A stretch of 64,000 bases of DNA from Medicago truncatula. Taxonomy: Eukaryota > Streptophyta > Magnoliopsida > Fabales > Fabaceae. A model generated the notes under the pieces. The model was not told the origin of the DNA. It ran no database searches and saw only the letters and a list, made by a program, of their open reading frames with translations. The position numbers and the translations under genes were made by a program. The DNA lies in assembly GCF_003473485.1 (NCBI RefSeq), contig NC_053044.1, positions 54,042,091-54,106,090 on the forward strand. Direction: 5' to 3'. This document shows, one piece after another, positions 4,292 through 61,200 of this stretch (its first letter is position 1; every line of letters starts with the position of its first letter).

Positions 4292-4337
4292 AATTATCAA
4301 TGAACCCATTCAAAAAAAAAAAAATTATCAATGAACC
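4292..4337 (+). mobile_element. Tail-only retro-insertion
   Basis: A 15-bp direct repeat, AATTATCAATGAACC (4292-4306 and 4323-4337), flanks only CATTC plus 11 A. The exact flanking repeat and the poly(A) fit target-primed reverse transcription that stopped almost at once. Confidence 0.7.
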
Positions 4338-4369
4338 AGGTAGTGATATATGTTCATGTATTGTGAATT

Positions 4370-4441
4370 GGAATAAGAATGAATCATTGGAGATCAACAT
4401 CATAAGGAATAAGAATGATTCATTGGAGAGCAGCATCATAA
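4370..4441. repeat. Tandem duplication, 36-bp unit, two copies
   Basis: Two adjacent units beginning GGAATAAGAATGA (4370-4405 and 4406-4441) differ at a few positions only. Confidence 0.8.
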
Positions 4442-4551
4442 TCATCAATGAATGATTCTACCAAAGACGTTAATTATCAACGAACGAGACTAAGAGTGTG
4501 TTAAAAAAAGCACATGAATATTATTAATAGAAAAACGCATGAGAATTAATT

Positions 4552-4560
4552 AATAAATGT

Positions 4561-4591
<31 letters not shown>

Positions 4592-4612
4592 TGAGAGAGA
4601 ATAAATGTGTTC
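4552..4612 (-). mobile_element. Tail-only retro-insertion, poly(T) orientation
   Basis: The 13-bp repeat AATAAATGTGTTC (4552-4564, 4600-4612) flanks 28 T followed by GAGAGAG. Read on the minus strand the insert is CTCTCTC then poly(A). Confidence 0.75.
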
Positions 4613-4675
4613 CTAAAAGACAAAATTGGAATGACCCGACAAAAAATAGGACAAATTAAAATGACATGACAAAAG

Positions 4676-4709
4676 TTGTGTAATTTTTTTTTTTTGGGTG
4701 ATTGTGTAA
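4676..4709 (-). mobile_element. Possible tail-only retro-insertion
   Basis: TTGTGTAA (4676-4683 and 4702-4709) flanks 12 T plus GGGTGA. Read on the minus strand, TCACCC then poly(A) resembles the end of the tRNA-like element at 5036. The repeat is only 8 bp. Confidence 0.5.
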
Positions 4710-5035
4710 GTATTAAGTAATATATTAATTAAATGATATAACTAATATCATATGAAAAATTAAAATTAATAATTATTTAAAAATAAAGTGAACTACACTA
4801 ATGTTATGCAATTAATTAGACGTGCCTACAAAATAATTATCGTATTTTAATTTTAACTTTAATAAAACCCAACATAAAGGCATAATACTTACGCGGTCAC
4901 GGCCATAGATTGATGAGAAATGATATTTGAACATTTTTTTTTGCAACAATTATTTCGACAATTCTATGTATATAGTGGTATTTTCGCAGAAGTGAATTTT
5001 TTTTTTCTTTCTAAAACACCATGTTAATTACTCAA

Positions 5036-5110: not shown

Positions 5111-5262
5111 TCATAAAGGTAAGGGTGTGTATTTTTAAGTTGTCACAAAATTGACGTCAATTTATCACAACTCTAAATTTATATAGTTTAAACACATTTA
5201 CAAATGGAAAAATGTAGAAATAAAAGAATCAAAATTTTGATATTATTATTATTGAACATATT

Positions 5263-5305
5263 AATTAATATATACTGATTTTTTTAATAAGAATTAATAT
5301 ATACT
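5263..5305 (-). mobile_element. Tail-only retro-insertion
   Basis: AATTAATATATACT (5263-5276, 5292-5305) flanks a 15-nt insert, read on the minus strand as CTTATTAAAAAAATC. The repeat itself is AT-rich, which lowers its weight. Confidence 0.5.
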
Positions 5306-9300: not shown

Positions 9301-10669
9301 GTATAAGTTTTTTCATTGAACTGTATGGTTTGTTTGTTTATGTTTTTCTTGAGGTATTCTCAACTGGTTGACAGGAAGCTCGAAAGTTTAGCAAGCCATA
9401 CATTGATCAGGTCGCTACTGCGGCTAAGCCTCATGTTGAGAATGTACAAGTGGTTCTGAAGCCCTACACAAAGAAGGTTGTTCTCGCTTATGGGAATTTC
9501 TTGGAATCAGCCACTGCATATCATCGCCAGGTTCAGACTTTACTTTCCTACTATTTATATATTTATGCTAATCCTCTTGTATTATTTTTTTGAATGGCAA
9601 ATGTTAGTAATTAGTTGTTAGATTAGTTTTTTTTCTCCTTCATTCGGGTTTCAACCCAGGACCTCCAACTCCTTATCCCTTAGCTCAAACCAGCTGTGCC
9701 CAACCCCTCCTGATCCTCTTGTATTTTTGTTGTTGCTGCTGCTGCTGCTGTTGTTAGCAAGGCCGGCAATGTGTGATTTTATTTAATGCTGTATATCTCC
9801 TGCTCCATACTGTATATGCACACCAGATAATTGAAAATAGAATCTTCAGTTGGCTGTCTCTGTCTTTTGAAAGTTACAGCTGCTTTATTCCCACAATCTG
9901 AAATCTAGTCAAAGGCAACTTGATATTATGACATCACCATACTAATGTTTCCTCATCGTAGGGAGCTGTGTGTCTTCTTTTCATGATATGCTTTTTGGAG
10001 ATTGCAACATGATATAGACATGGCAGTTACCCTTTCTGCTTATCATTTTGTGACGGGAATGTGAAACTACAATTTTGATTTTATTTCCCTCACTGCTTAT
10101 TCTTTGAAATTCTTATTAGTTCCAGATCTTGAACGGTTTGTTTTTTAATAGTTCACTATATAATAGTTTTCTTAGCTCCTTTTTGAGTGTTGAATTGTCT
10201 TTCGTTATTCAAGGTCCAAGCTACTGTTCAAGAGACGTTGAAAAAGCACGAGCTTACTAGACCTCTTGCTACCAAAGAATTGGAATGGTTTGCGGTATGT
10301 ATCGGAGTATTTTCTATATCCTAAATATTATTACTAAAATATAAATATGGTTAGGTGGTTTGACAAACATATCAAATTGAAACTATGCAGGCCTCTGCCC
10401 TTCTGGCCTTGCCTATTATCTTAATAGCTAGAGTTTTTTCTGCCATTTTCTGGTTAGTCTTAGATGTTTGTTTTTTCTTTTTAAACCCATACTGATTTGT
10501 TTTATTTTCCTTTCCATATATGCACTTCCTCGTATTTGTATTGAAAAAAAGAGCACATAGTTACAAATGTTTTATCATCTGCAGTAGCAAAAAGGCAAGT
10601 AAACCCGCTCGAAGTGGAAACACCCACCATGCTCGTCGTAAAGCTAAGCGAGGTCATCCAGACAAGTAG
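6389..10669 (+). CDS. ER-type coiled-coil membrane protein, At4g31340/At2g24420-like, 14 exons
   Basis: Exons join in frame into a 439-residue protein: 6389-6539, 6829-6956, 7094-7165, 7244-7357, 7931-7999, 8101-8157, 8495-8548, 8633-8695, 8842-8904, 9136-9300, 9375-9530, 10214-10294, 10391-10452 and 10585-10669. All junctions are GT-AG. The start is the ATG at 6389, after a (CTT)n leader. Residues 1-25 form a signal peptide. A heptad-rich coiled coil of about 160 residues follows, then a conserved Trp/Pro block ([10 protein letters not shown]) and two KAEPHV-like repeats. Near the C terminus is one membrane helix ([14 protein letters not shown]) followed by a basic tail. I match it to the Arabidopsis family loosely called 'myosin heavy chain-related' or 'DNA repair ATPase-related'. 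Those names reflect coiled-coil similarity and not activity. A signal peptide plus a C-terminal anchor suggests the endomembrane system. The biochemical role is unknown. Confidence 0.88.
9594..9720. repeat. Dispersed repeat in intron 11, copy 1
   Basis: It shares the start GGCAAATGTTAGTAATTA with a second copy at 16452-16545. Both contain a B-box-like block (TTTCAACCC here, ATCGAACCC there) followed by a decayed tRNA-like segment. This suggests an old SINE-type family, but no target duplication was found. Confidence 0.5.
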
Positions 10670-12069: not shown

Positions 12070-13024
12070 CAGATGGCTGGCACATGTGGGGCTACATATT
12101 TATTTGAACGTGGGGCTTGAATGTTGCACTTCTTTTTGGGTTAGGTAAATTTAGGACGTTTCACTGTAGAGTTGGGCGCACAATATTGTTTGGGTGTTCA
12201 TGTATTATGGCTGTTATATTTGTTATTAAACCTGGTACTCACTCTTTTATGTTGATTTTTTATTTAAATTTATAGACACTAGCAAAAGCATTTCCACTTT
12301 CAAGTATGTTTATTAGATTTAGAGCGCCTATTCCGGTTGTCTGTACTATAAGTTTATCACACAAAGAAACTGATTCATGGTTTATTCTTTGTTGGAACTT
12401 CATGTTTTCCCTTTTTCATTTGGTTTATTCTTTGTTGTTAATCAAGTCTGTTGAAATGTCTTCTGAAAATTATGTAATGATACGTTTAGCGAACTAATTT
12501 GGTGATTTGTGGCTCAGTGGACAAAAGTACCATTTTCAATTTCACGATGTTAAGACGCACTGAATTTTAAGTGCACTTGTTCACTTCATCTAAGAGTTTT
12601 AAGTATTACATTTTTTTTTGCTAACAAATAACATTTTTCTTCTGTGTCTTTGGATTTATTTATACATGCTGCTATGCAGTTTATGCACTGAGCCTCTGTT
12701 GTAAATACATCCTTTGCTTGGATTGGGTGTGGGCAACGGGAGCAAAATTTTCGTTTGGATATACTTGTCACCTGTATTTACGACAATTTTTTCTGGAAGT
12801 TATTTGTCAAAGAAATTTTTATTTGCCATTGGTCGTATTTTGAATACAACTACAAGAGGCTGCTTAGCAATTTTATCATATTTTGCAACTATAACAGATC
12901 GTACTGTTTAATTAATTACTTTGTTCATCGGTTTATGTAAATTTTACAAGGGTGATGGATATGTTTGCGCTAGTAGACGTCTTGTTTACTGACCTAAATA
13001 TTGGTTTAGGCAATTAACCAAATG

Positions 13025-14149: not shown

Positions 14150-15912
14150 TTAGTAGGAATTAGGCCAGTAAGTATCTAGACCATTAATGCAGTTCTCCAT
14201 TCCCATGTACCTATTACCATTTGAGTCATTATTGCTGTTGCTCATGGTTTCTAGTACTCCAATATTATTAATAATATTCTGATCTGCATCAACATAACTA
14301 TTCATTGTTGCATGAGCAAAATGTGGGGAATGTTGCATTGGCCGCAAAGTGGTTTGTGTTGTTGTGGTAGCTCCTCCTCCTCCGCCCGATCCAAGGTTCA
14401 AATTAAGCCCTGAAATGCTGAATCCTTCTCCTACTGTTGCTGAAGATGCAGGGTAGTTCAACTGGGAATATTGCATCATTGGTGCGGTAGTACTACAGTT
14501 GATGTAATTATTATTATGCTGATTCCGTCCGTAAAGGAAATTACGAGGAGCAGAAGGAAAATCTTCATGCAGATACTGCATCATTGGTGGTGGTGGCATC
14601 GATATCAGATTTATGTTATTAGGACCTATTTCATGCATGCTATAAGGATTCAATCCTGCTCTTGTATTGTTGTTGGAACTAGAATTACAAGGGTACTTTT
14701 TTCCACTGCCACTCTTCTTGAAAATCCGACAAATCACCCATTCATCCTGCTGCGCAGCGCATATCACAATTAGTTAGTTTGCTCACTTTCTTTGCACAAT
14801 AATAAGGGCATGTAATTATTAAATGCACTAGTAAAGTGCAAGATTGTAGGCATCTTATTCAAATTTTGGTTAAGTCTATCACAATTTTACAAAATCAACT
14901 TAAAATGTGAACGATGATTTATCAACACATGTTCGGATTATATCTCATCTAATCTAACATGCTAAAATTGAACATCTACTAAGTGTGACTCGAGTGGTTT
15001 GAGACCATGTGATCCAATCAATTAGTGGAGGAGTAACTTTCTTACCATTAATATGACTATAAGGATGACGTGCAAGCTTTTATAGATGTAGAGAAAAAGA
15101 TAAAGAAAACACAGATGTAAAATTCAAACACATTATCAGTAAGCTAACGACTTAATTATTGTCATAAATCTATGCCTGTATATTATACTACATACCTTGT
15201 TTGTTCTAAAGGTGGATTTAGAGTGAATACGGTATTCATGCATGACCCAATTACTTTTCTCTCCTCGAGGAGCTCTGCCTTTGTAAAAGACCAATGTCTT
15301 CTTCATTCCAACCAACTCCGATGTAACACTGTCGAAGATTTCTCTGTCTTTCCCTGTGGTCTTCCAGTATCCGGTGTTTGTTGCTCGATTCGTTCTCACA
15401 CCGGTTGGATATTTACGATCTCTCATATTGAAAAAGTACCATTCCTTTTCTCCCATCTTTGCCTTCCCTAAAATATTCATGCACGATAAAGACAAACTTC
15501 ATTTTTTTTTTGTACGCAATTTTTTCTTTCTTAATTGTTTAATGAGAATATCAACATCATTTTATAATGTTTACAACTATATATAGTATGTATGCACATA
15601 AATCGCATAAGGTTTATTTGGGACTAAAATAATCATACAAGGTGTCCTTCAAAAAAAATAAAATCATATAAGGTTATACACACTAGTGCGCGCGTGTGTA
15701 TACATACCTGGTAGCTCCCATGGTTCAGATTTGTTGAGATCTATATCAGTTATTGCTTTGCCTGTAAAACTAGAATCTGATATCTTGTTTATGAGATAGC
15801 AAGTGATGAGTTCTTCATCTGTAGGATGAAATCGAAATCCCGGTGGTAGGGTTTCCTCTTTTCCACCACTTTCTTCCATTAATTCTATATCCTTGGTCCT
15901 CTCCTTCTCCAT
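14150..15912 (-). CDS. NAC-domain transcription factor (NAM/CUC/ORE1-type clade)
   Basis: Three exons on the minus strand (15912-15708, 15467-15196, 14749-14150) join in frame to 358 residues. The N-terminal half is a complete NAC domain: [15 protein letters not shown], then [49 protein letters not shown] and DEWVICRIF. This domain binds DNA and dimerises. The C-terminal half is low-complexity (Asn, Met-Gln-Tyr, Gly) and is the likely regulatory region. It holds LNLNL at about residues 274-278 (genomic 14393-14407), an exact match to the LxLxL EAR pattern. ATG 15912 was chosen because it directly follows an AG acceptor. A leader intron with a donor (GTAAGC) near 16110 is likely, and it would remove the in-frame ATG at 15927. 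The encoded protein shows no segment typical of a miR164 site. Confidence 0.9.
15631..15674 (+). mobile_element. Tail-only retro-insertion in NAC intron 1
   Basis: AATCATACAAGGT (15631-15643) and AATCATATAAGGT (15662-15674) flank GTCCTTC plus a run of A. One mismatch in 13 bp. Confidence 0.6.
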
Positions 15913-16173: not shown

Positions 16174-16451
16174 TGGTAGTCATATATGTCATTCAGTAGG
16201 AAACGAAATTAACAGTAACTTGAAGGATACTGCAAAGTTGTAGAGAGCTTTCTAGTTACTACTAATCATGCATATATATGAAGTTAAATGAGGAATTTAA
16301 GTATTAAGGCAAAGAAGAAAACAGTGGAGGAGTGTGTTTTTTAAGCTTCCACCAAATGTGGGTCTTCACCTTCAAGTTTTTTTATATATAGACCAGCTTG
16401 CTAGCTGTAAAATTTAAATCATTAAGGGTTTTATTTTTTTTTATTTTTTTA

Positions 16452-16545
16452 GGCAAATGTTAGTAATTAAATGTTATGTTAATTTTCAGAATCGAACCCA
16501 AGTTGTCTCCTTAAAATTTAGTGCATGACTACCCAAACGAATTAC
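16452..16545. repeat. Dispersed repeat, copy 2 (relative of 9594-9720)
   Basis: It opens with GGCAAATGTTAGTAATTA and contains GAATCGAACCCAAG, a B-box-like block. See 9594-9720. Confidence 0.5.
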
Positions 16546-16765: not shown

Positions 16766-17454
16766 TGCATTTCCATATATTTGTCAAAAAAAAAACTAAC
16801 GCCTATAAAAAATAAAAAATAAAAACTAAATGTGAAGTTAAACGTTTACTTCTAATTATTAAGACTATAAGAGGAGTTTTTTACTCTTCCCTTAATCAAT
16901 CAATCACATCCACATGCATATACCAGGCTGTTTGTTCTTGTTTTTGTTTAAGCAAACAATTATTTATTTTAAAAAAATAATTACTTTTAAGAGTTTTATC
17001 CAAACAAACTAAATTTGTTAGGACTCTTTTATATAGTTGTATTCAAACAAATTAGATTAACTTTTTTTAAAATAATTTATATTGTGATAGACAAACATAA
17101 AATAGATTGATACCAGGAGACAAACATAAAACAAATTTTAGTTTTTATAGAGTCTCTAAATTATTAAATATCAATTTTTTTTTTAATTCGTAACAAATGA
17201 GTTTTGTACTCCATCCACTTTAGTTTAATATTTGCTTTAGCAAATTAAATGTCGCTTCGTCATTTCATTACATTATTTTTTTTTTGAGGGGCCATTATTA
17301 ATTTTATGTTTCCAATTTTTCTCTCATTTATTAAATATGAAACATTAGTTTTTATCTTAAATTTTCATTAAGCAAATATGAGGCTTGCATTTATTAATAA
17401 TCATGCTTGATTTTCCTTTTTGACAAGCAAAAACAAAGGTAGTCAAACCCTTAC

Positions 17455-17502
17455 AAAACAAGAGGATCTTTCCCTAAAAAAAAGAAAAAACAAGAGGATC
17501 TT
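17455..17502 (+). mobile_element. Tail-only retro-insertion
   Basis: A perfect 16-bp repeat, AAAACAAGAGGATCTT (17455-17470, 17487-17502), flanks TCCCT plus an A-rich run with one G. Confidence 0.75.
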
Positions 17503-18050: not shown

Positions 18051-18077
18051 TAATAATAATAATAATAGGCACGTAAA

Positions 18078-18422
18078 CCTGCAAACCTAACAATCTAGTT
18101 GCCTCCTCCTTCAATGTTGTTTTTGTTTGTCATCTTGTTGCAACGTTGTTTGATTTCTCATATTTGTGTCGTGTTTGTTTAGCTTAGATTGATAAAAAAA
18201 AAATCCTTTTGGTGTCTATTACAAATTCAAACAATAACTTTGGTATTTTCAACATTATAATGGATACTTCAAACATCTTTATTTTGTCACATTTGTATGT
18301 ATTTTGATATTATGTGAATTTCTTCACAAATTCATCATTTATAGTTCAACGACTTTGATATTTATATTGTCATGGATCGAAGTTTTTATTGATTTAAATT
18401 AATTGTTCGTTAAAAAAAAAAA
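18078..18422 (+). mobile_element. LINE-like 3' end with poly(A), 5'-truncated
   Basis: About 345 bp of T-rich DNA ends in poly(A) and is flanked by AATAGGCACGTAAA at 18064-18077 and 18423-18436. There is no coding sequence. A processed transcript of unknown origin is the alternative. Confidence 0.7.
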
Positions 18423-19269
18423 AATAGGCACGTAAAAGATATTAGCTAGAAAGTAGAAATACACGTGTGGATTTCAGAGAAAATTTGAGTTAGTAGGTCC
18501 TTCTTTTTTAAGCATGAATGAATCTACAATAACGAATAACAATCAGCCACGTTACTAGTGTATATTTATAGTGGAGCCCATGTGTACAAAGAAGTCAAAA
18601 TGCACGAGGAATAAGAATATTTATGACGATGAAGAACCAAAACCACATGAATGAATATGGGTTCCCTAAGAAACCAACCATTTTTGTCAATAAAAGGAAC
18701 CAACCACCAAAACATAAAAATGTATTAATTATTTCAAGGAAGACCGTTTCTTTTCTTCCTGGCCAGTTTCCAGGAATCCTGTTGTCTTTTTTCAACTTGT
18801 TAGCTTCAGATAATTACCTTCCACACTCAATTAATTGTTTTTGCTAGCTCTATAATATATTCTATTTTTATTATCACTTACACTACATTTCAGTTAGATC
18901 AATATTCTTTCTTTTTTGTTGAGGCAAGATAAGAGTAAATACTGGCCATGCTTTAATTATAAGGTGATCAGTATAAGAACACATATAGGGCATTTAAATT
19001 TACTTAATAATTGGTGAAAAAGTGTTATAACTCAATTAATTAATGTATATACTATATGGCTTTATAGTCATGAGATTTGCTTGTGCTACAAGGTAGAGAG
19101 AAAGCGGAAGCGAAAAGCATTGTAGCCCCTATGTACTCTATATACATGTAAAAAAACATTGTTTATCTTATTTTATTTAGGAACCTAAAAAGAAAAAAGA
19201 ACAACAACATATGCATTCATTTTTTTTTTTTTAACTTGTGTCTGTATCATTTTGCAAATGCTAGGCAAC

Positions 19270-20036: not shown

Positions 20037-20083
20037 TAGGTTCAATTTTTTTTGTTAAAAAATAAAAAGATAGGTTCAATTTT
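20037..20083 (+). mobile_element. Short A-rich insertion with flanking repeat
   Basis: TAGGTTCAATTTT (20037-20049, 20071-20083) flanks 21 nt, TTTTGTT followed by an A-rich run. Confidence 0.6.
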
Positions 20084-20378: not shown

Positions 20379-20425
20379 ATTTTGAAATATGTTTTTTTTT
20401 TTTAAGGAAAATTTTGAAATATGTT
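20379..20425 (-). mobile_element. Tail-only retro-insertion
   Basis: A perfect 15-bp repeat, ATTTTGAAATATGTT (20379-20393, 20411-20425), flanks poly(T) plus AAGGAAA. On the minus strand this is TTTCCTT then poly(A). Confidence 0.75.
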
Positions 20426-24695: not shown

Positions 24696-25463
24696 ATGCC
24701 TGAGACTGGTGGAAATTCAACATTCAGCAAGTCTACAGGATTGCCTCGAAAGCGCTTCTATCGAGCACGAGCACACAGCAACCCTCTCAGTGACTCTCAT
24801 TTCCCTGTGCCATTATCACCCAGTCATGTTGACTATTCCCTCCATTATCCTCAATTCTTTCCCTCGTCTGACAAAGCTGATAGTTGCAAAAAGATTAAGT
24901 TTGCCGATATTGGTTGTGGTTTTGGAGGGCTGCTCATCAGTCTTTCCACTCTGTTCCCAGAAACATTGATGATCGGAATGGAACTTAGAGATAAAGTGTC
25001 CGAGTATGTTAAGGAACGAATTTTATCTTTAAGGGTAGCAAATCCAGGTCAATACCAAAATGTTTCTGTGGTGCGGACTAACTCCATGAAGTACATTCCC
25101 AATCACTTTGAGAAAGCACAACTCTCAAAGATGTTTTTCCTGTTTCCTGATCCTCATTTTAAAGAGAAGAACCATCGCCGTCGGGTTATCAGCCCATTCT
25201 TACTAGATGAGTATGCTTTTGTTCTCGAGGTTGGTGGAATTATATACACAATAACAGATGTGGAAGAACTTGGGGACTGGATGAAATCTTGTTTGGAGAA
25301 TCACCCATTGTTTGAACCTTTGACTGAGAAAGAACTTGAAGCAGATCCGGCTGTTAAGCTTTTAAGCTCTGCTACTGAAGAAGGCCAAAAGGTTGCTAGA
25401 AATGAGGGACAAACTTTCCAAGCTGTATACAGACGCATTGCAGCATCTGATCAAATATCCTAG
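24696..25463 (+). CDS. tRNA (guanine-N7-)-methyltransferase (TrmB/Trm8/METTL1 family)
   Basis: A single uninterrupted 255-residue frame. It transfers a methyl group from S-adenosylmethionine to N7 of guanosine 46 in the variable loop of tRNAs. In eukaryotes this subunit works with a WD-repeat partner (Trm82/WDR4). Visible features are the SAM-binding glycine loop ADIGCGFGG (about residues 70-78), the acidic MIGMELRDKV strand, and the family signature FPDPHFKEKNHRRR with its basic tail, which contacts tRNA. The C terminus ends QAVYRR plus a short tail. A leader intron is likely: donor CCAG|GTAAC at 24020 and acceptor TTGCAG at 24680, 15 bp before the ATG. Length is normal for the eukaryotic family. 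An N-terminal organelle signal is not evident. Confidence 0.93.
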   Translation: MPETGGNSTFSKSTGLPRKRFYRARAHSNPLSDSHFPVPLSPSHVDYSLHYPQFFPSSDKADSCKKIKFADIGCGFGGLLISLSTLFPETLMIGMELRDKVSEYVKERILSLRVANPGQYQNVSVVRTNSMKYIPNHFEKAQLSKMFFLFPDPHFKEKNHRRRVISPFLLDEYAFVLEVGGIIYTITDVEELGDWMKSCLENHPLFEPLTEKELEADPAVKLLSSATEEGQKVARNEGQTFQAVYRRIAASDQIS

Positions 25464-26354: not shown

Positions 26355-26489
26355 ATAACAGACGTGGAAGAACTTGGGGACTGGATGAAATCTTGTTTGG
26401 AGAATCACCCATTATTGAACTTTTGACTGAGAAAGAACTTGAAGCAGATCCGGCTGTTAAGCATTTAAGCTCTGCTACTGAAGAAGGGA
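26355..26489 (+). pseudogene. Duplicated fragment of the tRNA methyltransferase gene
   Basis: About 135 bp is nearly identical to 25252-25386 of the gene upstream (ACAGA.GTGGAAGAACTTG onward, encoding TDVEELGDWMKSCLENH). The copy carries small changes including a net 1-base loss at the codons for PLFEP, which shifts the frame. It has no start, no SAM-binding part and no 3' end, so it cannot encode an enzyme. The sequence on either side does not match the gene. Confidence 0.9.
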
Positions 26490-27390: not shown

Positions 27391-27780
27391 CACACACTAG
27401 TGATCTCACAAAGAGCATTGCACACCAGAGTGCCATCTCAGACCAGGTATCAAAATATCCAACGAATTTGATTATACATTCAAAAATATTAGTGCTACTC
27501 TTGGTAGTTTTTTCACTTTTAACCTTCTTCACGAGCACTTCATAATTTTTCTATCCAAATATAAAATGTAAAATTGATTAAAAATAAAACTACGCGAAGT
27601 TGAATGGAGTGCATCCAATGCAAAAACGGTTTGTTAAAAAAACAAAGAATGAGTAAAGAAACTTATATACCAAATAAACGGGGGGGAAGAATGAGCAACT
27701 ACAATAAATAACAAATACTGCAGTAGATACATATAAAGCAAAGCTGTGGCCTGTGCAACATAATAATCATTAAAATGGGA

Positions 27781-29062
27781 GTCATTCAACTACTTCACTG
27801 CATTTACGCTCTCCCTTGAGACAGCTACTTCAGGCCATCTTAGTCGCGATCCCAATTCCCAGATTAAAATATTTTTCTGTACCTCTGCTACATGTTGTCA
27901 ACCAGATACATTTAAAAGATGTTACTGAATAAATTTAGCAATACTCAATTGAAATGAATCAGCTAGTCAATGACTCATATTCAGTTACCTAAGAATAAGA
28001 TATCTCAGGCTCTATAATGCCTTGTAGAAACAATGAACTATATGGTTCTGATTATCAAATGCAGTACAAAATCAACCAGCTCAATAGCACTGGACTTGTG
28101 AAAGCACCTGAATTGCGTCAAAAAATGTTAAATACCTTGCAGATTGAAAGCTTTACATATTCAGAAAAAACAAGCATAATCTGGCTCCAGGTCAGTTTGG
28201 ATTAGGCTTAGTTCCTGCATATCTTACGATGATAAGGCACAGGAAACAAGTTAAAATAACCAGACACAACAAAGATACACTGCATCCAGGGACAAAGTAA
28301 GGAAGCTAAGGGAAAGGATTTGGTTGGTTTTAACCAAGAGATAAAAGAATAAAAGTATGAGGAATAATCCAGAGACATTCAACACTACAAATAACAAAAG
28401 CTGCTGTCCAAATTCAAAAAGGCTTGTATTTATTTCTCTTTAGAAAATCAAATAAGCTTGGTCCAAGCTTTCCAAATATATAATAACACCATTGAAAAGC
28501 GTTGAAAAGAACATTTCTGCTTCATTCCCAGATCTAAGAATAAACCCCACATGGACATATATACACATACAAATCTATTATAGCTAAACTTAGCAAGTCG
28601 ATTTACTTGCAACATAAGTGGGGATTAATCACCATTCTTCTCTGAATTAAAAGATAAAGCAGAAGAAATCAACATAAAGACAGGTACATATCAGTGTAGA
28701 AAAGGAAGAAAAAAAACTAACCATTTTTTTAAAAATTCCAATCATCATATTTGTTTTCACAATAATTCAACTTGTAATCAATTCTATTTCGGATCTGTAC
28801 ACAGCTGCATATAATAATTAAGATGGAGTAAATACTAGTTATTCCTTAATAAAAAATCTACAACCAAATTCTAGCAGGATTTCTCTATAAGTATGTACCG
28901 TGATTTTCTCACATCATTCTATGCTAGAGGTTGAAGCACGCCAACCTCCAGCGTTGCTGCTTCAGATATTCCTTCATGCTTCTAGTTACCGTCATATTCT
29001 TTGGTTTGGCAGTCCCAGCATTTCCAAACCCAACCAAAGGTGCCTATAGTGCTACCAAAGGC
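27781..29062 (-). pseudogene. Decayed partial copy of the AFC3-like kinase gene
   Basis: Segments match exons of the intact kinase at 31695-35600 in the same order and orientation: exon 4 (about 28915-29060), remains of exon 5 (28795-28810), exon 6 (28382-28490), exon 7 (28136-28226), exon 8 (27990-28120) and exon 11 (27781-27887). Exons 1-3, 9, 10 (with the EHLAMMER motif) and 12 are missing. The intron between exons 7 and 8 has almost vanished by deletion. Remaining exons carry indels and stops, so no kinase can be made. DNA downstream (about 27390-27780) also resembles the 3' flank of the intact gene (31370-31690), so this was a genomic, not an RNA-mediated, duplication. Confidence 0.9.
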
Positions 29063-29087
29063 TGAAGTACACAAGAAAAGTAACAGT

Positions 29088-30791: not shown

Positions 30792-31694
30792 GTTTTAGAG
30801 AAAATCCAAGGGTTTTTTAAATGTATGTTATTTGAATGATTGTAGAACTACAATACATGAATGATTCTACTCCATTATGGAGAATTTTTTTTTTAGGGTC
30901 TCTTAAGACCCGGAGTCTCGCTTAAGACCTTCAATCTTAAGTGGACCCTACACCACTTTTCAATAAAATAATCATTATTTGAGTTGCTTTTGTTATTGGT
31001 GGGATCCATTTATATCTTTTGATAGAAGATCTCTATTTGAGTGGTTGAGTACCTATTAGGTACTATTATTAAAAAATAATAAAAAAATGATGTCCCCATC
31101 GGGGATCCGTTTAAGATCTCAAATGTGAGGGTGTTCATCGTGGATGCTCAACTAAATGACCATTGGTCCATTGTAAAAAAAAAAGACCATTTTATATGAA
31201 ACTTTGATCAATAATAGAATTAGAAAGTGTAATCCCTTACTATTTTTTTACATGAGTAAAAGTCACGTAAACAAAACATCAATCCCATCCAGGCATAAAC
31301 AAGAATTAATAAATGTTGCAAAGAATCGATTGTGAATGAACCTTCAAATAATGATGTCCCAGTAGGCCTTGCTTACCAGAGTGCCATCTTAAAAAAAAAA
31401 AAATAATCAAAGTTTGGATACATTCTAATTTTTTGGCATTATGTTCTTGATACTTATTTTACTTTTCACCTTCTCGAGTACAACATAATTCCTCTATCCA
31501 ATAACTATGTTCAGTAGAGTGAAGTTCTCATACCACCCATCCATTGCAAATACAGTTTGGTTGAATAAAACGATCATGATAAATAAATATTTTCTACGCG
31601 ACTAAACCACTGCAATAAATGATAAATCCATTTAAAGCAAAATTGTAGTCTGTGCAACTGATAATCATTCAAATAACATAAGGTATTTGGCTTC
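30792..31694. other. Spacer between the PPR gene and the kinase 3' end
   Basis: No gene. The part from about 31340 to 31690 is related to 27390-27780, the 3' flank of the kinase pseudogene; both contain ACCAGAGTGCCATCT. This marks the extent of the segmental duplication. Confidence 0.55.
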
Positions 31695-34600
31695 TTAAGT
31701 TGGAATCCTAAAGAAGGGATGATCAAGAGCTTGGCGAGCAGTAATGCGTTTGGATGGTTCGTATGTTAATAAACCATACAACAAATCAGTTAATGAGGAC
31801 CTTGACGACTCAACATGACGTGATATAATATCCTGCATAAAGAATAATAATCGGTCATTACATGCTAAAATTCACACAAACTAATAGATTTATTAAGATC
31901 AAGCCCCAAAACTACTGATATAGAAGAAGAAACAAAACAAACCTTAAGATCGCCAAGCTTCTTCACTGCATTTATGCTCTCCCTTGAAACAGCTCCTTCG
32001 GGCCATCTTAGTCGTGATCCACGCTTGAAATATTTTTCCGTACCCCTGCGAGATATTGTGAAGCAAATATATTTAAAATATGTTACTAAACAAATTTACT
32101 GCACTCAATCATAACATTTAATCACCTGGTCAATGATTCATAACTTACAAGACACTAAATATATCTTAAAAACAGTTAATTTAATGGAAAGAGAAATTAG
32201 AGACCATGCCGAAAATCTATTACATACTTAGACCTTTGAACCATATGCTCTGGTAGAGGTCCCAAAACTCTCTCCATCATTGCCAGGTGCTCCAAATTTT
32301 CATGAGTCTGAAACAATGCTCCTCCCTGGCAAAAGTTCCACAGTTAGAATGCTAAAACCAGCTGTTCCAGATTCAAAACATGCCTACATCTTGATAGATG
32401 GAAAACCAACCGTGCATAACTCAATGAGAATGCATCCAACACTCCACAAATCACACGGAGATGACCACCCTAGACCTGGAATGTAATTTTAGATGCATGT
32501 GAGAATACATTAACAGCTATAAATTATATTGATAAACCCAACAGTTTTACTAATTTCACATAGTCATCAACAAAAAATAGATTTGGCATTTCTATATTAT
32601 TTTCATAACATCAACATGAGAGAAGAACAAAACAGCCACCAAAGTGTATAAGAAAAAAAAATAAAAATAATTGGCTATCCATCATGAGAGCACAATCAAA
32701 ATTGGAAATCGGAAAAATGTCGGTCATTACAGTACAAAGGCTCAGAACAACAAATATAGTGAAGATCAAAGATCTAGGATAATATAAGATAAGCTGGGAA
32801 ATGGTTGCTGGGATATTTAACCAGAGATGTGATGCAGCTACTGGAAACATTTTTAACAGGTCAAAGTATTTCTCGTTGTCATTTACTATTTTCATCGTCA
32901 AGAACGACATTTACTCTGGACAAAGAAACAGACAAACAAGTAAAGCAACCACATTGTGACCAACCAAAAACATATTTCGTTACCTAAGATAACCTCAGGG
33001 GCTCTATAATGCCTTGTAGAAACAATGGAGCTATGACTCTGATTTGCAAATGCAGTACTGCCAAAATCAATCAGCTTAATCGCACTAGACTTAGGCAAGC
33101 ACCTAAATTGCGTTTCATCTGACATAACCCTCTGTACCAATCAAGTAATTTTCATTAAATATATTATTATAATGAATCAACAAATGTAGTTATTTTTTAT
33201 CTGAAAATACCAAGTACCTTACAACTAGGAAGCTTTACATAGTCAGAAGAAACAAGAAGTATATTTTCTGGCTTCAGGTCGGTGTGGATTAGGCGTAGTT
33301 CATGCATAACTGAATATGACAACGCACGAGAGACATATTAAAGTAAGCACGCACAACAAAGATACACTGCATTATGGGACAAACTAAGCAAGCCAAGGAA
33401 AAAGATGATGTTGATTTATAACCAAGAGATATAATAATAAAACATGATGAATAAACGCTTGAGGTCAAGAATAATCCACAGACATGCTACAGATTCCAAA
33501 AGCTGTCGTCCAAATTCACGAACAAGATCCACAGGGAATGGGCAGTATTTATTTCTCTTTAGAAAATCAAATAAACTTGGTCCAAGCTTCTCAAAGACCT
33601 GATAACACCATTAAAATGCGTTGAAAGGAATGTTTCCACTCAGTTTCCAGATCTATGAATAAATCCCACATGGACATGTGTGTACATAATAATCTATTAT
33701 AGCTGAACTTATCGAGTCAACAAAATTGCAACAAAAATTGGGATAAATCACCTATACTTCCTGACCTAAAAAAACAAACAGCACAAAAGAACAAGACTGT
33801 GTGTCGGTCGAGAACAGAACTAATTTATTCAAAATAATCCCAATCATGAATCATGACACCCATTTTCAAAATAATACAAAACTATCACCTACCCCACCAC
33901 CCGGTATTATATGGGTCTTCAACTCAGGTCAGGAACAAATTTTATCAAAACAAACTAACTGGATATGGTAAATGAGGAAAACATTTTGATGAAAAAAATA
34001 TAATAAGACTACTTACAATGCATATGTGATTCCGGTAATCGAACCAATTCAGGATCTGTACACAGCTGCAAATAATAATATTTATATTAGTCATCTCTTA
34101 ATTAAAAAAATCAGTAAGCAAACTCTAGCAGGTATCCTTTCCAAAAAAAAAAAAAAAAAAACTCTAGCAGGTATTATATATATTGTTGTACCTTGAGCAT
34201 CCCACATCACTCTTCACAAGACGTTCAAGCACATCAACCTCGATCATTGCTGCATCGCGATACTTCTTGATGCTTCTAATTACCTTGATAGCTACATAAT
34301 CTCTGGTTTGACGATCCCAACATTCCAAAACTCGACCAAAGGTGCCTACAGCACTAGCAACATGCTGAATGACACAAGCAGAGTCAAATAAAAATTTAAA
34401 CTTGTATTCAGAGAGCACTTGACCGCTAACCTTCACCCATTTTGCTGAGAATTTTATCTGTCAAAAATAAATTAAGAAAAAGAAGTTCAAACCACCACAC
34501 CTTTCATAAACACCAAATTGAAGAGTGAGAAAAATAGACAACGAACAAACTAGGCTTAATTACACTAACGAAAAATAGTCCCTCTATTTTCACATTTGTT

Positions 34601-41207: not shown

Positions 41208-42460
41208 GCGGTATTACTAGTGTTGAATGTTGATACTGAGTCATTATATATCTGTTTTAAACTATGAATGCCTAGTAATTTTTAGTCAAGCTACAATCCT
41301 CTCTTTTGTGTGATTCAAATAGTATTAATTATGCTTTATATTGGTATTCTTAATTAATGAGTATTATTTGCTTATAAACATCTGTAATGTGATCTCTGTC
41401 TTTCTCTTCAATTATTCTTTCAAACGGCTCATTTTCTTACTTGAGATCACAAAACTTGACTAGATAATAGATCCAATCCAACTAAAGTGTCAAGAATGGC
41501 TTGGCTGTTAAGCAAATTACCTGATGGTTCCATTTATTGCACAGTACGATACTGCTCCTTTTTACCTACCTAGCTAAATTTACATATAAAAGTAAAACTG
41601 AAATTTTTAGAGACCCTCTTAGTCAGCTGGTGTCACCAAAACATGATACGAGCCCCAACAAAATAAAGATGTGAGAGAGACTATGCTGGGTCTTGATTGT
41701 TGTCAGGGTGATTTGTTGGTTGCTCTTAATGCTTCTTGCTTTAGATCTTCTATATATGTATCTATGTATAGAAGATAACAAATTGGAAGATGGTAGCCCC
41801 ATTCTTTTTAACATAGGCATGCATGCAGTTAAATGAATCATGAGAGCTATGTTCAATCTACTTACAATGCATTGCAAGGACTAAAACATCAATTTAATAT
41901 GGCTAGTGAGTAAAACTATCGTATAAGGTTACCCTACAATTAAGCTTTCTCATTTATTGCATACAACTCCTCAATGCAATATACTGTCCACTCAAAAAAA
42001 TCAATATATTGTGACTTTTGCTACTCTGTTTAGCAATCTTTGATATATTAATTCTTGACTCCCCTGCCTATAGCTATGTGTAAACGCATGGAAATGATAA
42101 TTTGCTTATTAGGTGAATTGAAGGGGTATAGTAGAGTCTGCATTAATAGAGTTTTCATAAATCAGGTGGCAAAATTTGCCAAATTACTTCGCTGAACTGA
42201 AATCTTTGATTGGGACACATGATTATCAAATTGGATGACCAAGTTGAATTTTATTTGAGTTGATTGTTTGGAACCCAGATATTTATATATTGTAATGTCT
42301 TTACTAACTAAGTTATGCTCACGACTCGAATAACGATTGTAGTAAATAAAATAAATGATATATTTTTTTTTTAACAAAAAATGATTATTTAATTCATGAT
42401 GTTATGATATTTACCGTATCATTTTCACGAAGACCGTGCAATCCACGCAAACCCCACAAG
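41208..42460. other. Intergenic DNA between the GRP and hemoglobin genes
   Basis: No gene is supported. A small A-tailed insertion with an imperfect flanking repeat lies at 41977-42012. Confidence 0.45.
41977..42012 (+). mobile_element. Tail-only retro-insertion
   Basis: CAATATACTGT (41977-41987) and CAATATATTGT (42002-42012) flank CCACTC plus seven A and T. One mismatch in 11 bp. Confidence 0.5.
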
Positions 42461-42741: not shown

Positions 42742-43927
42742 CAATATTAAATAATCTTTCTTCACTATGTTCATGATAATTAATGGTTGTGCTATAAATA
42801 ATAGAGTTTATGTTGACGATGAGGAGTGGTTTCGTTCAATATTCGCCAAATCTGATAAAGACAAAGCAATTCAAAATCAGTACGAATTCTTGGTACAGAG
42901 AATGGGAGGTCCTCCTCTGTATTCTCAAAGAAGAGGTCAATATTCTTTATTTTATTTTTTATTATTCATATTTTTATTTATTAAACCTTCATACTTCACC
43001 AGCATTAGAACTATAAACAAACAGTCTTTTTTTTATAGAAACACTTTTAGTTTTTTAACTTTTCAGAAAAATAAATACTTTTAATTAGTGATTACTATTT
43101 TACTGATTTTTTTTGTACTCAAGTAAGAAAACAATATGATAGATTTTTTCAAATAAATAAATAAATACTATGATAGATATATTTAGAAAAATACTATTAA
43201 TTTAACACCTACTAACAATTTTTTTTAGTGTATGTGATTTAGTCAATGATACTCTTCTTTATTGGATGCTTAGTAAAATGACAGGTTTTGAACTTACTAC
43301 AAAATGAGTTTATAAGTGATTATTGCCTAAGCTTTGAAACTTATATTTAGGTCCTTATATATCTCTAATAAACGTGTGGCTTAGTTCATTTTGCTATTCC
43401 ATCCACTTATCTTGTTTATTTTGTCCTTATAAATTTCAAAATTGATTTTTCCCCCTATTGAAATGGAAAGTTTTAGACAACAGAATCACAGAAAATGGAA
43501 AGAATTTTATATATTGATATATCACACTGAAAATAGAGTAATAATAAAACAAAGCAACTTGAAATTCAAAATCTTTGATGCCGTACTTCACATTACAGGA
43601 CATCCTGCTCTAATTGCTAGACATCGACCATTTCCTGTGACACATGAAGCTGCCGAGAGGTGGTTACTTCATATGCAACAAGCATTGGACAACATTTCAG
43701 ATATAGATCATGATTCCAAGATAATGTTGATGAACTTTTTCAGGTTTATTATCTTCCCCAATTCAATTATATGATCACATTGTAGAAATCAAATCAATAA
43801 AAATAAATAGCAACCTTATGTTTTCAGGCACACTGCATATTTTCTTGTTGCTGGAGTTGAACAAAAGAATCAAAGCCTTCACCCTTGCAAGGATGCAGAT
43901 GGAAGGCATCCATGTAAAAACTTTTAG
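42536..43927 (+). CDS. GLB3: Class 3 (2-on-2, truncated) hemoglobin
   Basis: Four exons (42536-42672, 42805-42935, 43599-43743, 43828-43927) with GT-AG junctions join in frame to 170 residues. The order [75 protein letters not shown] and [12 protein letters not shown] follows Arabidopsis GLB3 closely. The histidine in GHPAL or RHRPF of this block is the likely proximal haem ligand. In legumes these proteins bind O2 and NO and some are expressed in nodules. Class 3 members are thought to act in NO handling. The C terminus is shorter than in Arabidopsis GLB3 and ends HPCKNF. Intron 1 contains a (TA)n tract of about 60 bp and intron 2 is 663 bp. Confidence 0.93.
42678..42739. repeat. (TA)n microsatellite in hemoglobin intron 1
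   Basis: About 30 TA units starting a few bases after the exon 1 donor. Confidence 0.95.
43135..43178. mobile_element. Possible short insertion in hemoglobin intron 2
   Basis: TATGATAGAT (43135-43144, 43169-43178) flanks 24 nt, TTTTTC followed by AAATAAATAAATAAATAC. Simple-sequence expansion is an alternative. Confidence 0.4.
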
Positions 43928-46753: not shown

Positions 46754-46797
46754 ATAACGTAACTTTTTTTTTTTTAAGGAATAACGTAACTTTTTTT
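46754..46797 (-). mobile_element. Tail-only retro-insertion
   Basis: ATAACGTAAC plus seven T (46754-46770, 46781-46797) flanks TTTTTAAGGA. On the minus strand the insert is TCCTT then poly(A), the same ending as at 20394. Confidence 0.6.
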
Positions 46798-49081: not shown

Positions 49082-50506
49082 GGGTTAAATATGTTTTAAG
49101 TCTCTATAAATAGGCGCGTTTTCAACATTAGTCCCTACTTAAATTTTATTAAATTTTTGGTCCCCAACATTTTTTTCCTTTAACAAAATAGGTCATCGCT
49201 GTTAATTGTTGCTGATTGAGCAAACGGTGAAGCACACGTGGATGTCACATCTGACTTTTTTTGTTGGGTTAAATATATTTTTAGTCTCTATAAAATTGAG
49301 GCATTTTAAGTTTAGTCCTTATTTAATTTTAATAGTTGTTTTAATCCTTACAAAAATATTATACACTCAGTATTAGTCCTTGCTCAATTCAAATTTGTTT
49401 AATTTATGCTTAAACTCTTAAGTTTTTTAACAATTTTTTGTAGATGTGTTAAGCATTACTCTTTGGTTAATCTGTAGGCATCTTGTATACTGCCACTAAT
49501 TTTGCATGAAATGGAAGCATATGGGTTGGTTCGAATTAATATGGAATTATTTTTCCACGCCCATTCAATATTTTGCCCCTGGTTAGATATTAGGTTCTGC
49601 TCAAATAATCTATGCCGCTTCAACATCTTTTGGTCAATATCTTTTGTTATGATAGACTACCGTCTTCTTTATCTTGACGAAATGGGTGGAATGACTATCC
49701 CAATGCCAAAAATATTCACGATTTTCACTATCTTATCAATGACTTCTTTTGCATTGTCGGGCATGAGTGGTTTTGTTGCCGAATTGATAGTTTTTTTTGG
49801 AATAATTACTAGTCAAAAATATATTTTCTTGATGAAAATACTATCATAACTAGTTTTAGTAGGTTTTTTTAGTCCCTACAAAAAAAAAATATTACTTATA
49901 ATTTTAGTCCCTACTAAAACAAAGTTTGTTTAATTTTCCTTAAACTCTTAAATTTTTGAACGAATTTTTTGAGACAAGTTTAGAACACTATGAAAGGTTC
50001 AATTAAAAAAATTTAGAATTTTTTAACATGAAACGAATTAAATATGAATTTTTGAAAACAATAAAAGTTAAAGATAAAAGTAATAAAATATGGACATATA
50101 AATCAAATTTTGCGGCGGAACTTTTAGTAATATTCTTAACACGTCTACAAAAAATTGTTAAAAAACTTAAGAGTTTAAGAATAAATTAAACAAATTTGAA
50201 TTGAGCAGAGAATAATATTGAATGCATTGTATTTTTGTAAGGACTAAAACAACTATTAAAATTAAGTAAGGACTAAACTTAAAATGCCTCAATTTTATAG
50301 GGACTAAAAACATATTTAACCCAACAAAAAAAAAGTCAGATGTGGCATCCACGTGTGCTTCCGTTTGCTCAATCAGCAACAATTAACAGCGAGGACCTAT
50401 TTTGCTAACGGAAAAAAAATGTCATGGACCAAAAATTTAATAGAATGTAAGTAAGGACTAATGTTAGAAACGCGCCTATTTATAAGACCTAAAACATAAT
50501 TAACGC
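49082..50506. mobile_element. Large foldback element with inverted arms of about 370 bp (MULE-like)
   Basis: Left arm 49082-49455 starts GGGTTAAATATG; right arm 50135-50506 is its inverse, ending CATAATTAACGC. Arms are about 85-90% alike. Within each arm a second GGGTTAAATATATTTTTAG start occurs (49266; inverse near 50300-50323), so two nested pairs of ends are visible. The 680-bp core has a 115-codon frame (49502-49849) with no recognised motif and more TAGTCCCTAC words. No clean target duplication was found, so the superfamily is a guess from arm length. Confidence 0.7.
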
Positions 50507-57330: not shown

Positions 57331-57337
57331 TATTTTA

Positions 57338-57618
57338 CTCCCTCCGTCCTAAATTGTACGATGTTTTGAACATTTTACACATATTAAGAAATGTAATTAA
57401 TATTATGTCGAAAAGAGATATTATGAGTTGTTTTACAAAATTGTCCTCAATAAATGATATGGGAAAGATAAATAAAGAAATTGAAAGAAGAGAGAGTAAT
57501 AAATAGTTAAGGATATAATAGGAAAAGTAACATTATTTTTTCATTGGTATCGTAAAACGACATATAATTTGGGACAAATATTTTGTCTAAAGTGACATAC
57601 AATTTGGGATGGAAGGAG
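57338..57618. mobile_element. Stowaway-type MITE, 281 bp
   Basis: Ends CTCCCTCCGTCCTAAATTGTA and its worn inverse CATACAATTTGGGATGGAAGGAG, flanked by TA on both sides (TA is the target duplication of this superfamily). Confidence 0.8.
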
Positions 57619-57880
57619 TAACAGATTTGAGCGATGTAGAGGAAACTAGTGAGACATTTTAAAATGCTTATTTTCCATCAACATGATCTTCCATTAATTT
57701 ATCTTTCTTTCCGGATTTAGGATATCTGAAAATCACTCTTGATTCTTCCTATTGAAGTCCAAACTTTGCCAATAACCATGCAGGAGTATTTTCGGTGTTA
57801 GTTTGTTATGTTTTTTTTATTTGTCGCTATACACAACTTAGTATTTACTGTTTTCTTGTTATTATCATTTTAAATAGGTA

Positions 57881-58015
57881 CTCCCTCCGTTTCAAAATAT
57901 AAACAAATTTTACTTTTTACGTTCATTCAATTAATGATGTTAAAACGGAGGGAGTACATCATTAATTGAATGAATCTAAAAAATAAAATTTGCTTATATT
58001 TTGAAACGGAGGGAG
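57881..58015. mobile_element. Stowaway-type MITE, 135 bp, with an internal copy of its own end
   Basis: Ends CTCCCTCCGTTTCAAAATATA and its inverse, flanked by TA (57879-57880, 58016-58017). The whole element folds on itself. At the centre, between CATTCAATTAATGATGT and its inverse, sits an extra TAAAACGGAGGGAGTA. Confidence 0.9.
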
Positions 58016-58208
58016 TATTTTATAAATAGCTTCAAGCCAATTTTCATATTATGGACAAGTTACAACAATATGGCAGGAAGAAAGTTGAAAAGGATTATAC
58101 TCATCATAAGAACTGAATTGAATGACAATGGAGTTTATATTGCCAAAGAAAATTAATGGGGTTTGCATCAAAGACAAGGAACTATATATAGTACAACAAC
58201 AGCAAAAT

Positions 58209-61200
58209 TTAACTGGGCAATAAAACGTTCAACAGTTTTCCAGGGAGATGCTGTATACTAAGAACCCCCAAGAATGTTATATCTACACCTGCTGAACCAA
58301 AACAATTGCCAGTCATGCCACAACCTAGGTGAACAAAGTCAGTGTCGTTCTGCAGAGAGGAAAAAGAAGCTTGTCAGATCAAAATTTCACAACCCACTAC
58401 AAACCAACCACAGCTCAGGCCTTTGATCATAGGACTCATTCTATATTCAAAAATAGAGGAAGACAAAATATAAATGTCATAGTCTCAAAACCAGATCCAT
58501 AGACATAACTTCATAGTTTCGATACTTATGGTATAACTTTGAAGAACAAAATATCACAAAACAAAACAAAAAAAAAAAGAACTTTGAAGAACAAGAAAAC
58601 TTCGATCATGTGATTTATTTTTTTTCAAAAGATCAAACAGAATCAGTTCAATAAAAATAACAACCTATCTGCTAGTATAAAACGCATGCATTGCAGCAAA
58701 AAAAACATTGAGTTGAATATATAATGCTTAGAACAGTCTAAACTCGTATTTAATACAAGCAATAGAGAAAATCCAATTAAAAAACTTCACAACCAAATTT
58801 TTTTTTAAGGGAAAACTTACCAACAAAATAGAAGGGTCAATGGAAATCGTTTAGAGTTTAGACTTCAACTTAGCTTTGAGTTTGCTCAACTCCCCACCTT
58901 GTCGCTTAAAAATGTTATAACCAAATATCAATATCGCTTAAGATTTAGCAAAACTAATTCAATGTTGCTTAAAATAAAGCAGAAATGAATAATTTCCGAC
59001 ACAATTCAACAATTCAATACCTGATATAATTTTCTCCAAGATTTGTCCGCTCTTTCTTGTAGTAAACACCACTCTACAGCCATATCATATTCAATGTTGT
59101 TGGGCTGAGAACAATGTGAAGTAGATATTGCATCTTTCTGTTCAACCAAAATCAGATTCACGAAAAAAAGAAAATGAACCAACTTGTTGCCAAATAATTT
59201 CAAAATTAGGATACGAATTCAAACAAGAATTAATCTGACCATACCATCTCACGTTGTGTTTGCAATCGAAGTTGGTCAATAACATGATGACCATAAAATG
59301 TCGGCTTCTTCTCCGGAATGCAAGGGAGTCTTCCAAAGCTTCCCACAAGTGGGCTATACCGAACAGTAAAATTAAATATTCCAAGTAAGCAATACATAAG
59401 AGCAAACAATATCAAGCAAATTTACAAACATTTAACTTGTTGTACGCTTTAGCGCACTACGATATATGATTACACGGGTTATATTTTCTCAACAAAAAAA
59501 GGTAACTAATCTTAGGAAACCAATCCAAGATAAAGGAAACTAATCTTACGAGATAAACCAAGATACTCTAACATAGTATAAAGATATTCTAAGATAATCT
59601 TATATTGTAAAAATCTCCAAGCTAATGCTTATTCAACTTTCAGCATGTTACAAATATACCTTATAAATAGAAATTCGTTTTCAGTCTTTTGCATCATTTT
59701 ATTGTCAATAATATTACATCATTCCTATAAATGCGTTATGTTAGAAAGCACTATTATGTGTATTACACTCTAAAAAAATAAAAAATAAAAAAGGGCAGCC
59801 CGGTGCACTAAAGCTCCCACTTACGCAGGGCCCAGGAAGGCGTCCCACCAAATGGTGTATTGTACGCTACCTTACCCTTTTTTATACACAAGAGGCTGTT
59901 TCTAGGACTATATATAAATATTGAATTTAATTTATATTAGCATCTAATAAATATAATAAACATACCAATAATAATTTAACTATAATTGATTCAACCGCTT
60001 TACCACAGTTGAACCATAAACTGGTGTCTTTACTAATTCAACGACCGGTCTGGTTTCAGAACATTGCTTCAGACATAAGACAATCGTACCTGACTACGCT
60101 CTTTAATAGGGTAACTGCATAGTTACTATAGTTAATCGAATAACAGATTCCAAATCTGTTATCTAGCTGTACTAAGTCATTGGTAACTAACTTAAGAGAT
60201 TCAGTTAAAAGATGTTAGATAGCTGGTGTCCATATAAATACCATTGAAGTATATTACTCATCTTTTGATTAATGAAATCATTCCAGAACTTTCCTTTACT
60301 TTCTCTGCACTTTCCTTTTCTTTGACAATGGCTTAGATTCTATTATGGTATCACAGAGCTCATTTTTTATCCAAAACCATGGCTTCCTCTGATGAATCGA
60401 CGCCAATTATCAAAGATACTGCTCAATACCAGGATTCATGACTGAATCTTACTGCAAATTCCAAAATTCATGTTTTCAAAACATTTCTGTCCCAACCACT
60501 TGAGTTACGGTAAGGCAGTAAGACAGAGTTAATGTCATCATGTTTCCCTTTCCTCTCATATAATTGTGTTTTGCATGCCAAAACTAAGCACATGAAACTT
60601 GCCATCTTTTTTTCTCCGAGCCTTGTAGTTCAACATATTCCAGCTTTAGACCATGTTGCTGATCTACTCATCAAACCCTTGTCTCCTCTAAAACTTCATA
60701 CACTCAAAAGACAAGCTCAAAGCTGTTGGCAAAAGCTCTCTAAGTTGCTATCCTGACTTTGAGGGAAAGTAATAGAGCAAATGATCAACTCTGTAGTAAC
60801 TAGAGGAGATTGCAAATATGTTATCTAGCTGTACTAACTTTCCGAGTATGTTATCTAGCCAAGGCTGAGTTGACTGCAAGCGGAATTGTTTTCTGGACAG
60901 ACACAGATGCCTCAGGAAAAACTCATGATTCTGTTGCAAGTTCAAAAAAGCTTATGGAAAAAGCCCAAAATGCAGTACTGCTTCAACGTTTCTTGAATTC
61001 TAAGGCTCTCAAATCGTCTTCACAGTTCAGGACAAACTACAAACCTAAGTGTTTCTCTTCGATATATAAGATTTGCTTGTATTTCACCGCTCTGCTCTTG
61101 TTTTCACGTGTCAGGTTTGGGGTTCCTCTTTGTTTCATTTTGTCTCATTTGCAATGCTTTGTTAAGTCAGTTGTGTTATGCGATGCTCTTGTTTTACTCT

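Follow-up and report, generated by a model that had tools for sequence, protein, structure and literature searches.

The window analysed here is a 64-kb stretch of the Medicago truncatula genome (C3:54042091-54106090; genome size 429.9 Mb in 42 contigs). It contains a series of very short inserts between long direct repeats, consisting of little more than an A-run with a few letters in front of it, which are referred to below as tail-only insertions. A sequence-only reading of the window had listed 12 main sites and two weaker ones. All 14 places were read, and the 12 main sites proved to be real, with repeats of 11–17 bp around a short insert with an A-run. The repeats are exact and 13–17 bp long at 10 of the 12, and carry one mismatch each at 15631 (13 bp) and 41977 (11 bp); the weaker sites have repeats of 8 bp (4676) and 10 bp (43135). 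The order is polar: repeat, block of 4–8 nt, A-run, repeat. The sites, with two extra candidates, are as follows.

4292..4337, plus strand: tail-only insertion; 15-bp repeat, CATTC, A-run; the block is identical to the terminal 5 nt of the short interspersed nuclear element (SINE) of the window
4552..4612, minus strand: tail-only insertion; 13-bp repeat, CTCTCTC, A28; last five letters of the block match the end of the long interspersed nuclear element (LINE) L058
4676..4709, minus strand: weaker site; 8-bp repeat, TCACCC, A12
5263..5305, minus strand: tail-only insertion; 14-bp repeat, CTTATT, A7TC; unfilled copies of the surrounding repeat elsewhere (by coordinates)
15631..15674, plus strand: tail-only insertion; 13-bp repeat (1 mismatch), GTCCTTC, A8TAA
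16786..16829, plus strand: extra candidate; CGCCTAT and an A-rich tail in an older A-run; A-rich 14-bp repeat, 1 mismatch
17271..17299, minus strand: extra candidate; 7-bp repeat, GCCCCTC, A-run
17455..17502, plus strand: tail-only insertion; 16-bp repeat, TCCCT, A8GAA
19270..19315, plus strand: tail-only insertion; 15-bp repeat, TCCCTTC, A5CAAT
20037..20083, strand ambiguous: doubtful site; 13-bp repeat
20379..20425, minus strand: tail-only insertion; 15-bp repeat, TTTCCTT, A-run
34120..34174, plus strand: tail-only insertion; 16-bp repeat, CCTTTCC, A-run; its paralogue near 28866 is unfilled
41977..42012, plus strand: tail-only insertion; 11-bp repeat (1 mismatch), CCACTC, A7T
43135..43178, no strand assigned: weaker site; 10-bp repeat around TTTTTC and AAAT repeats
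46754..46797, minus strand: tail-only insertion; 17-bp repeat, TCCTT, A-run
58535..58594, plus strand: tail-only insertion; 15-bp repeat, block AATATCAC, A-rich tail with C

The description of the inserts as a pyrimidine-rich block followed by poly(A) holds for most sites and fails at 58535, where the block AATATCAC is not pyrimidine-rich and the tail holds C. At 5263 the poly(A) is short, A7 followed by TC. The repeat at 20037 is present, and the site is weak as a tail insertion because its tail can be read on either strand and the insert is common to two other genome copies.

Counting tandem arrays, the window holds 31 exact repeats of at least 12 bp at distances of 6–40 nt; 11 of them are tailed in the stated polarity and 3 in the reversed one. 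Markov simulations of orders 2, 4 and 6 (20 runs each) gave on average 0.40–0.55 such repeats and 0–0.15 tailed ones, far fewer than the window holds. The reversed sequence is a better control than simulation, since it preserves runs and composition. The tailed-repeat scan (block limited to 0–9 nt, score of at least 8, A6 required) gave 11 forward matches in the window and none in reverse; the 11 include 10 of the sites and position 20966, whose block is not pyrimidine-rich, while 19270 is missing because its run is A5. Counted by A-runs, repeats of at least 13 bp accompany 11 of 275 forward (one site twice, 20966 included) and one in reverse.

Polarity and block length beyond the window

The sample was extended by 20 stretches of 10 kb, taken at round positions on C1-C4, and by SINE loci; window included, the scan then covered 50 records with a total of 354,361 nt (354 kb below). 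Among exact repeats of at least 13 bp, blocks of 0–3, 4–8 and 9–60 nt were found 1, 19 and 2 times forward and 1, 0 and 4 times in the reversed sequence. The 19 forward sites with 4–8 nt are distributed over the window (8), the 200 kb of stretches (10) and a SINE locus (1). A looser scan demanding a repeat score of at least 11 gave 36 forward matches with blocks of 4–8 nt against 4 reversed; its block-less reversed matches are mostly forward sites read backwards. The stop is therefore sharp: few inserts end within the tail, and the range of 9–60 nt beyond it holds no excess.

This distribution bears on the simplest alternative, that the inserts are only the short extreme of a wide range of lengths left by ordinary random 5′ truncation and that the stop is nothing special. 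Truncation is common among L1 copies according to the consulted part of a junction survey (PMC2912911), and longer A-tailed inserts do occur here, namely the SINEs and the following insert:

18064..18436, plus strand: longer A-tailed insert of 345 nt with 14-bp repeats

However, random truncation should fill the 9–60 nt class, which is nearly vacant next to the 4–8 nt class, and we regard this explanation as unlikely.

The polarity is also seen without any demand for repeats. Genome-wide counts, each carrying its own reversed-pattern control, gave 21,277 places for YYYYYY-A10 against 4,352 reversed and 416 for TTTCCCT-A9 against 40. A-tails on the 3′ side only, the arrangement expected of target-primed reverse transcription (TPRT) by the L1 clade, are thus seen both here and in the 19 exact-repeat sites with no reversed counterpart. 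Blocks with five purines (RRRRRY-A8) occur 11 times against 15 reversed in the 354 kb, so the polarity belongs to the pyrimidine blocks. In the same DNA, four pyrimidines precede an A-run of at least 8 in 73 forward and 26 reversed cases, and the pyrimidine fraction in those runs is 0.77 at -6, 0.59 at -7 and about 0.5 from -10, a profile that fits a short block and is independent of the repeats. Of 380 A-runs of at least 8, 121 have five or six pyrimidines among the adjoining 6 nt upstream, compared with 48 of 380 downstream.

For the anatomy of the sites, a core set of 33 of the 36 looser-score sites was used, those with a tail long enough. This set leaves out 15631, 41977, 4676 and 58535, and some of its members lie in tandem or repeat contexts (L002, L007). 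The repeats are 11–19 bp long with a mode of 16, within the approximately 7–20 bp expected for TPRT target repeats. With regard to a nick motif of the TT/AAAA type, the first repeat base is A at 28 of the 33 sites, the second is A at 21 and the preceding base is T or C at 22; these figures are partly forced by the method and neither establish nor contradict such a motif. The last repeat base is T at 23. The A-runs range from 5 to 28, and 10 of the 33 tails have a non-A letter among the last three before the second repeat. Non-A letters make up 20 of 336 in the tails, compared with 5 mismatches among 499 repeat positions. The interruptions may be original; alternatively, A-runs may mutate faster, the repeats having been chosen for identity.

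Another possibility is slippage or the repair of breaks with filler. In this view the repeat results from filling in a staggered break, while the A-run represents filler or expanded later. The earlier claim that repair hardly yields long repeats around filler did not survive the wider scan, since 60 of 88 such repeats (at least 13 bp, gaps of 6–40 nt, 354 kb) have no A/T6 run, though these 60 include 19270 (A5) and several are tandem-like. The frequency of such tail-less repeats in this genome speaks for repair, but repair does not predict one-way polarity, a pyrimidine block or a narrow block length. Filler should show no polarity, and the tail-only sites do show it. As their origin, break repair appears very improbable. 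Tail-less, break-repair-like inserts of 15–26 nt in long direct repeats were seen in the window at 12378, 17089, 35483, 37955, 60817 and 61391. At 49867-49914, a 13-bp repeat surrounds A10 in the opposite polarity, with a TTTTAGTCCCTAC unit; similar TTTTAGTCCCT letters were found in L049.

Unfilled paralogues and candidate source elements

Constructs representing the unfilled state of 10 window sites and 16 sites from fetched loci were searched in the whole genome. An unfilled paralogue with a single repeat copy was found for 6 of the 26 (3 clear, 2 partial and 1 equivocal), all of them paralogues and not alleles. The clear cases are 34120, L005:3127 and L021:2662, the partial ones 5263 and L012:7208, and the equivocal one L020:2642. 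Site 34120 sits in a tandem duplicated block, and its counterpart there has one repeat copy:

28850..28900, plus strand: unfilled paralogous site near 28866, single repeat copy (AAATTCTAGCAGG)

The alignment score between the two was 73 with the site filled and 116 after removal of 39 bp (one repeat plus the insert), and removal at the 34120 repeat was the best among the offsets tried. The block occupies 27415-29081 and 31366-34384, with approximately 70–80% identity in pieces, and is the source of this unfilled site. For L005:3127 there are two unfilled copies (87 and 82%) and for L021:2662 one (85%), each over the whole or nearly the whole construct, and the single copy for L012:7208 (95%) extends only 11 nt beyond the repeat. 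For 5263, nine matches span the repeat at about the unfilled length, the short side measuring 17–44 nt in three and 9–13 nt in six. Elsewhere in the window, 25251-25384 and 26355-26487 are a partial duplicate (96%) of a Methyltransf_4 gene piece.

The window also contains a potential source element and a weaker relative of it:

9571..9725, minus strand: transfer RNA (tRNA)-type SINE (9584-9712) with 13-bp repeats and the 3′ end TTTGCCATTC-An; boxes A and B recognised by eye
16449..16520, minus strand: weak similarity to the 3′ region of the SINE (blastn; nhmmer E 0.75), possibly an older copy

The SINE has 40 scored genome matches, itself included, which are the best of 401 candidates. Its copies with a readable 3′ end mostly finish in CCATT(C)-An or similar, which fits the CATTC block at 4292, and three SINE copies have repeats of 13–15 bp and tails resembling those of the tail-only sites. 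Its folding was no better than that of shuffles (z = 0.53), Rfam and tRNA scans of the window gave no match, and exact patterns of the SINE, used to look for plant contamination in public collections, were not found in viral contigs or genome contigs.

The zf-RVT profile, which we take to be a marker of plant LINEs, gave 150 scored matches out of 6,220 candidates; at least 14 of them lie in frames of 1,346–1,400 amino acids, that is, in intact LINE frames, so the machinery for TPRT is present. Judging by the poly(A) tails and by the consulted part of PMC3747384, this machinery probably belongs to the L1 clade. Seven LINE ends before the tail were read as TTTCCT, CTTTATC, GAACATC, TTGTGTTT, GGTTGCT, TCACTTC and TCCTCTC. 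With three C-terminal LINE queries, tblastn gave no match in the fetched DNA at 1e-3. No co-location was seen when the 150 listed LINE matches were compared by eye, in a weak test, with the 100 TTTCCCT-A9 places at the head of their list.

The sequence-only reading had proposed a source ending in TCCYTTC-poly(A). In favour of a single family of this kind as the maker of all the insertions, TTTCCCT-A9 is tenfold polar genome-wide, and given four pyrimidines before the A-run, C at -4 has a frequency of 0.49 against 0.12 reversed (0.47 against 0.50 at -3). Against it, CATTC, CTCTCTC, TTATTC, TTCTTT and other blocks differ, 14 window blocks share no significant common suffix (p = 0.17) and all seven LINE ends differ from each other. 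A single family is therefore hardly credible.

The same lack of a significant common suffix among short pyrimidine strings would suit a different origin of the block, in which the template is pure poly(A) RNA and the enzyme adds untemplated purines to the end of the complementary DNA, read as a pyrimidine block, before the second strand is joined. Such addition would also explain the rarity of pure-A inserts. However, 5 of the 8 ends (seven LINE and the SINE) themselves carry 5–6 pyrimidines in the last 6 nt, a few SINE 5′ junctions inspected by eye show no clear pyrimidine addition, and agreement with one of these ends over 5 nt is found for 4 of 28 blocks (1.45 on average in shuffles, p = 0.043, on a test set chosen after the ends had been seen: all 19 exact-repeat sites and 9 picked by hand). 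We consider untemplated addition improbable, to about the same degree as random truncation. At L015:8944, agreement with the L052 end extends, by eye, over as many as 10 nt, of which five belong to the repeat.

An RNA hairpin before the tail was considered as the cause of the stop and rejected as a general one, being strong in only one of the seven LINE ends (L055, where it ends 9 nt from the tail); the helix in L053 uses tail letters, and two of the seven ends offered only 22–25 nt for folding. The LINE 3′ untranslated regions of L052, L055 and L056 have, by eye, an inverted repeat of the GGAGG...CCTCC type upstream of the tail, with differing stems.

Proposed mechanism and its significance

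Taken together, polarity, repeat length, unfilled paralogues and intact LINEs lead us to TPRT. The insertions were very probably made by this process with LINE machinery and ended just past the tail, as the sequence-only reading had supposed; the narrow stop at 4–8 nt had not been noticed in that reading. We suggest the following course of events. Priming would start from a nicked T-rich end paired with the poly(A) of a LINE RNA, a SINE RNA or another polyadenylated transcript. After copying the tail and 4–8 nt of the RNA body, the enzyme would stop. A cut in the other strand, at a distance of about 16 nt, and the joining of the ends would then duplicate the target. The block may be the 3′ end of the copied RNA, a view that is supported but not proved; the nick site and the identity of the copied RNAs we infer. 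The A-runs vary (5–28) while the block does not, which suggests that what fixes the stop is either the tail edge in the template or the step of the enzyme off the tail.

Several points weigh against this reading. The preference for A at the start of the repeat is partly a product of how the repeat boundary was placed, since repeats were extended to their maximum length and the second copy begins within or next to the A-run. At 9 of the 33 core sites the blocks are less than 75% pyrimidine. The evidence for empty sites comes from paralogues within one genome, not from accessions or sister species, and except at 34120 the unfilled state was read from match coordinates and query lengths, not from letters. 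No informative match was obtained for 17 of the 26 sites in the whole-genome search; 20037, L003:4369 and the tandem L008:4609 gave filled copies only, and the unfilled copy of L020:2642 (96%) is one among many filled ones and could therefore be a loss. Finally, 24 of the 28 blocks have no 5-nt match among the eight ends, the number of matches of at least 4 nt is not significant (8 against 5.3 expected, p = 0.13), and only seven LINE ends were available for the comparison.

Scaling from the 10 sites in the 200 kb gives an estimate of approximately 21,500 sites genome-wide (Poisson range about 10,000–40,000). The stretches were taken at round positions from four chromosomes, and the density in the window is higher, with 8 sites in its 64 kb. 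Genome-wide, pyrimidines before A10 are in excess at about 16,900 places, whole LINE and SINE tails included. Tail-only insertions may often give rise, unnoticed, to new A-runs and to small changes in length. If the TPRT reading is true, much plant LINE activity escapes repeat annotation, because the events leave only about 10–35 nt, and the sites would allow abortive events to be counted and would help to explain why LINE copying comes to a stop. Our tentative further proposal, for which we claim less confidence than doubt, is that copying by the plant LINE enzyme includes a separate abortive step 4–8 nt past the poly(A), at which most target-primed events may end and be sealed; failed retrotransposition, not full copies, would then be the main mark left by LINEs and would account for a substantial share of A-runs.

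Comparison with known systems

Break repair in rice, studied by Vaughn and Bennetzen, reportedly gives short duplications with filler. A direct repeat around a short insert is common to such plant duplications and to the sites described here, whereas a tail and polarity are not expected there.

Among plant retroelements, the consulted part of PMC3747384 names MT_SINE-1 to 3 as poly(A) SINEs of Medicago and suggests that recognition in plant L1 lineages is relaxed and of the poly(A) type. Poly(A) tails are shared with these SINEs and with L1-clade LINEs, and three SINE copies here have similar repeats, but those are whole elements and the present sites are tails only. The mammalian L1 survey (PMC2912911) deals with endonuclease-type targets, which the sites here may share, and its repeats for full-length L1 peak at 14–16 bp, compared with a mode of 16 here. 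Its range of 50–10,000 bp excludes a tail-only class, and the part consulted describes no fixed stop.

The closest parallels are human. For a poly(T) insertion in NF1 exon 25, the authors suggest, in the part consulted, a severely truncated Alu, L1 or processed pseudogene (PMC3219598). The two cases are alike in a poly(A)/(T) tract and a possibly truncated retroelement; NF1 is one disease case, whereas here a recurrent genome-wide class with a block of 4–8 nt is seen. In another human study (PMC5402677), two polymorphic Alu inserts bore TPRT features but could not be classified because of their shortness. TPRT features on tiny inserts are common to both systems, but the human examples are few and were set aside by the authors, and the consulted part mentions no fixed stop, in contrast to the narrow stop in Medicago. 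No report of a tail-only class in plants was found in the open-access literature. Tail-only insertions as such are known in humans, while their abundance and narrow stop here look new.

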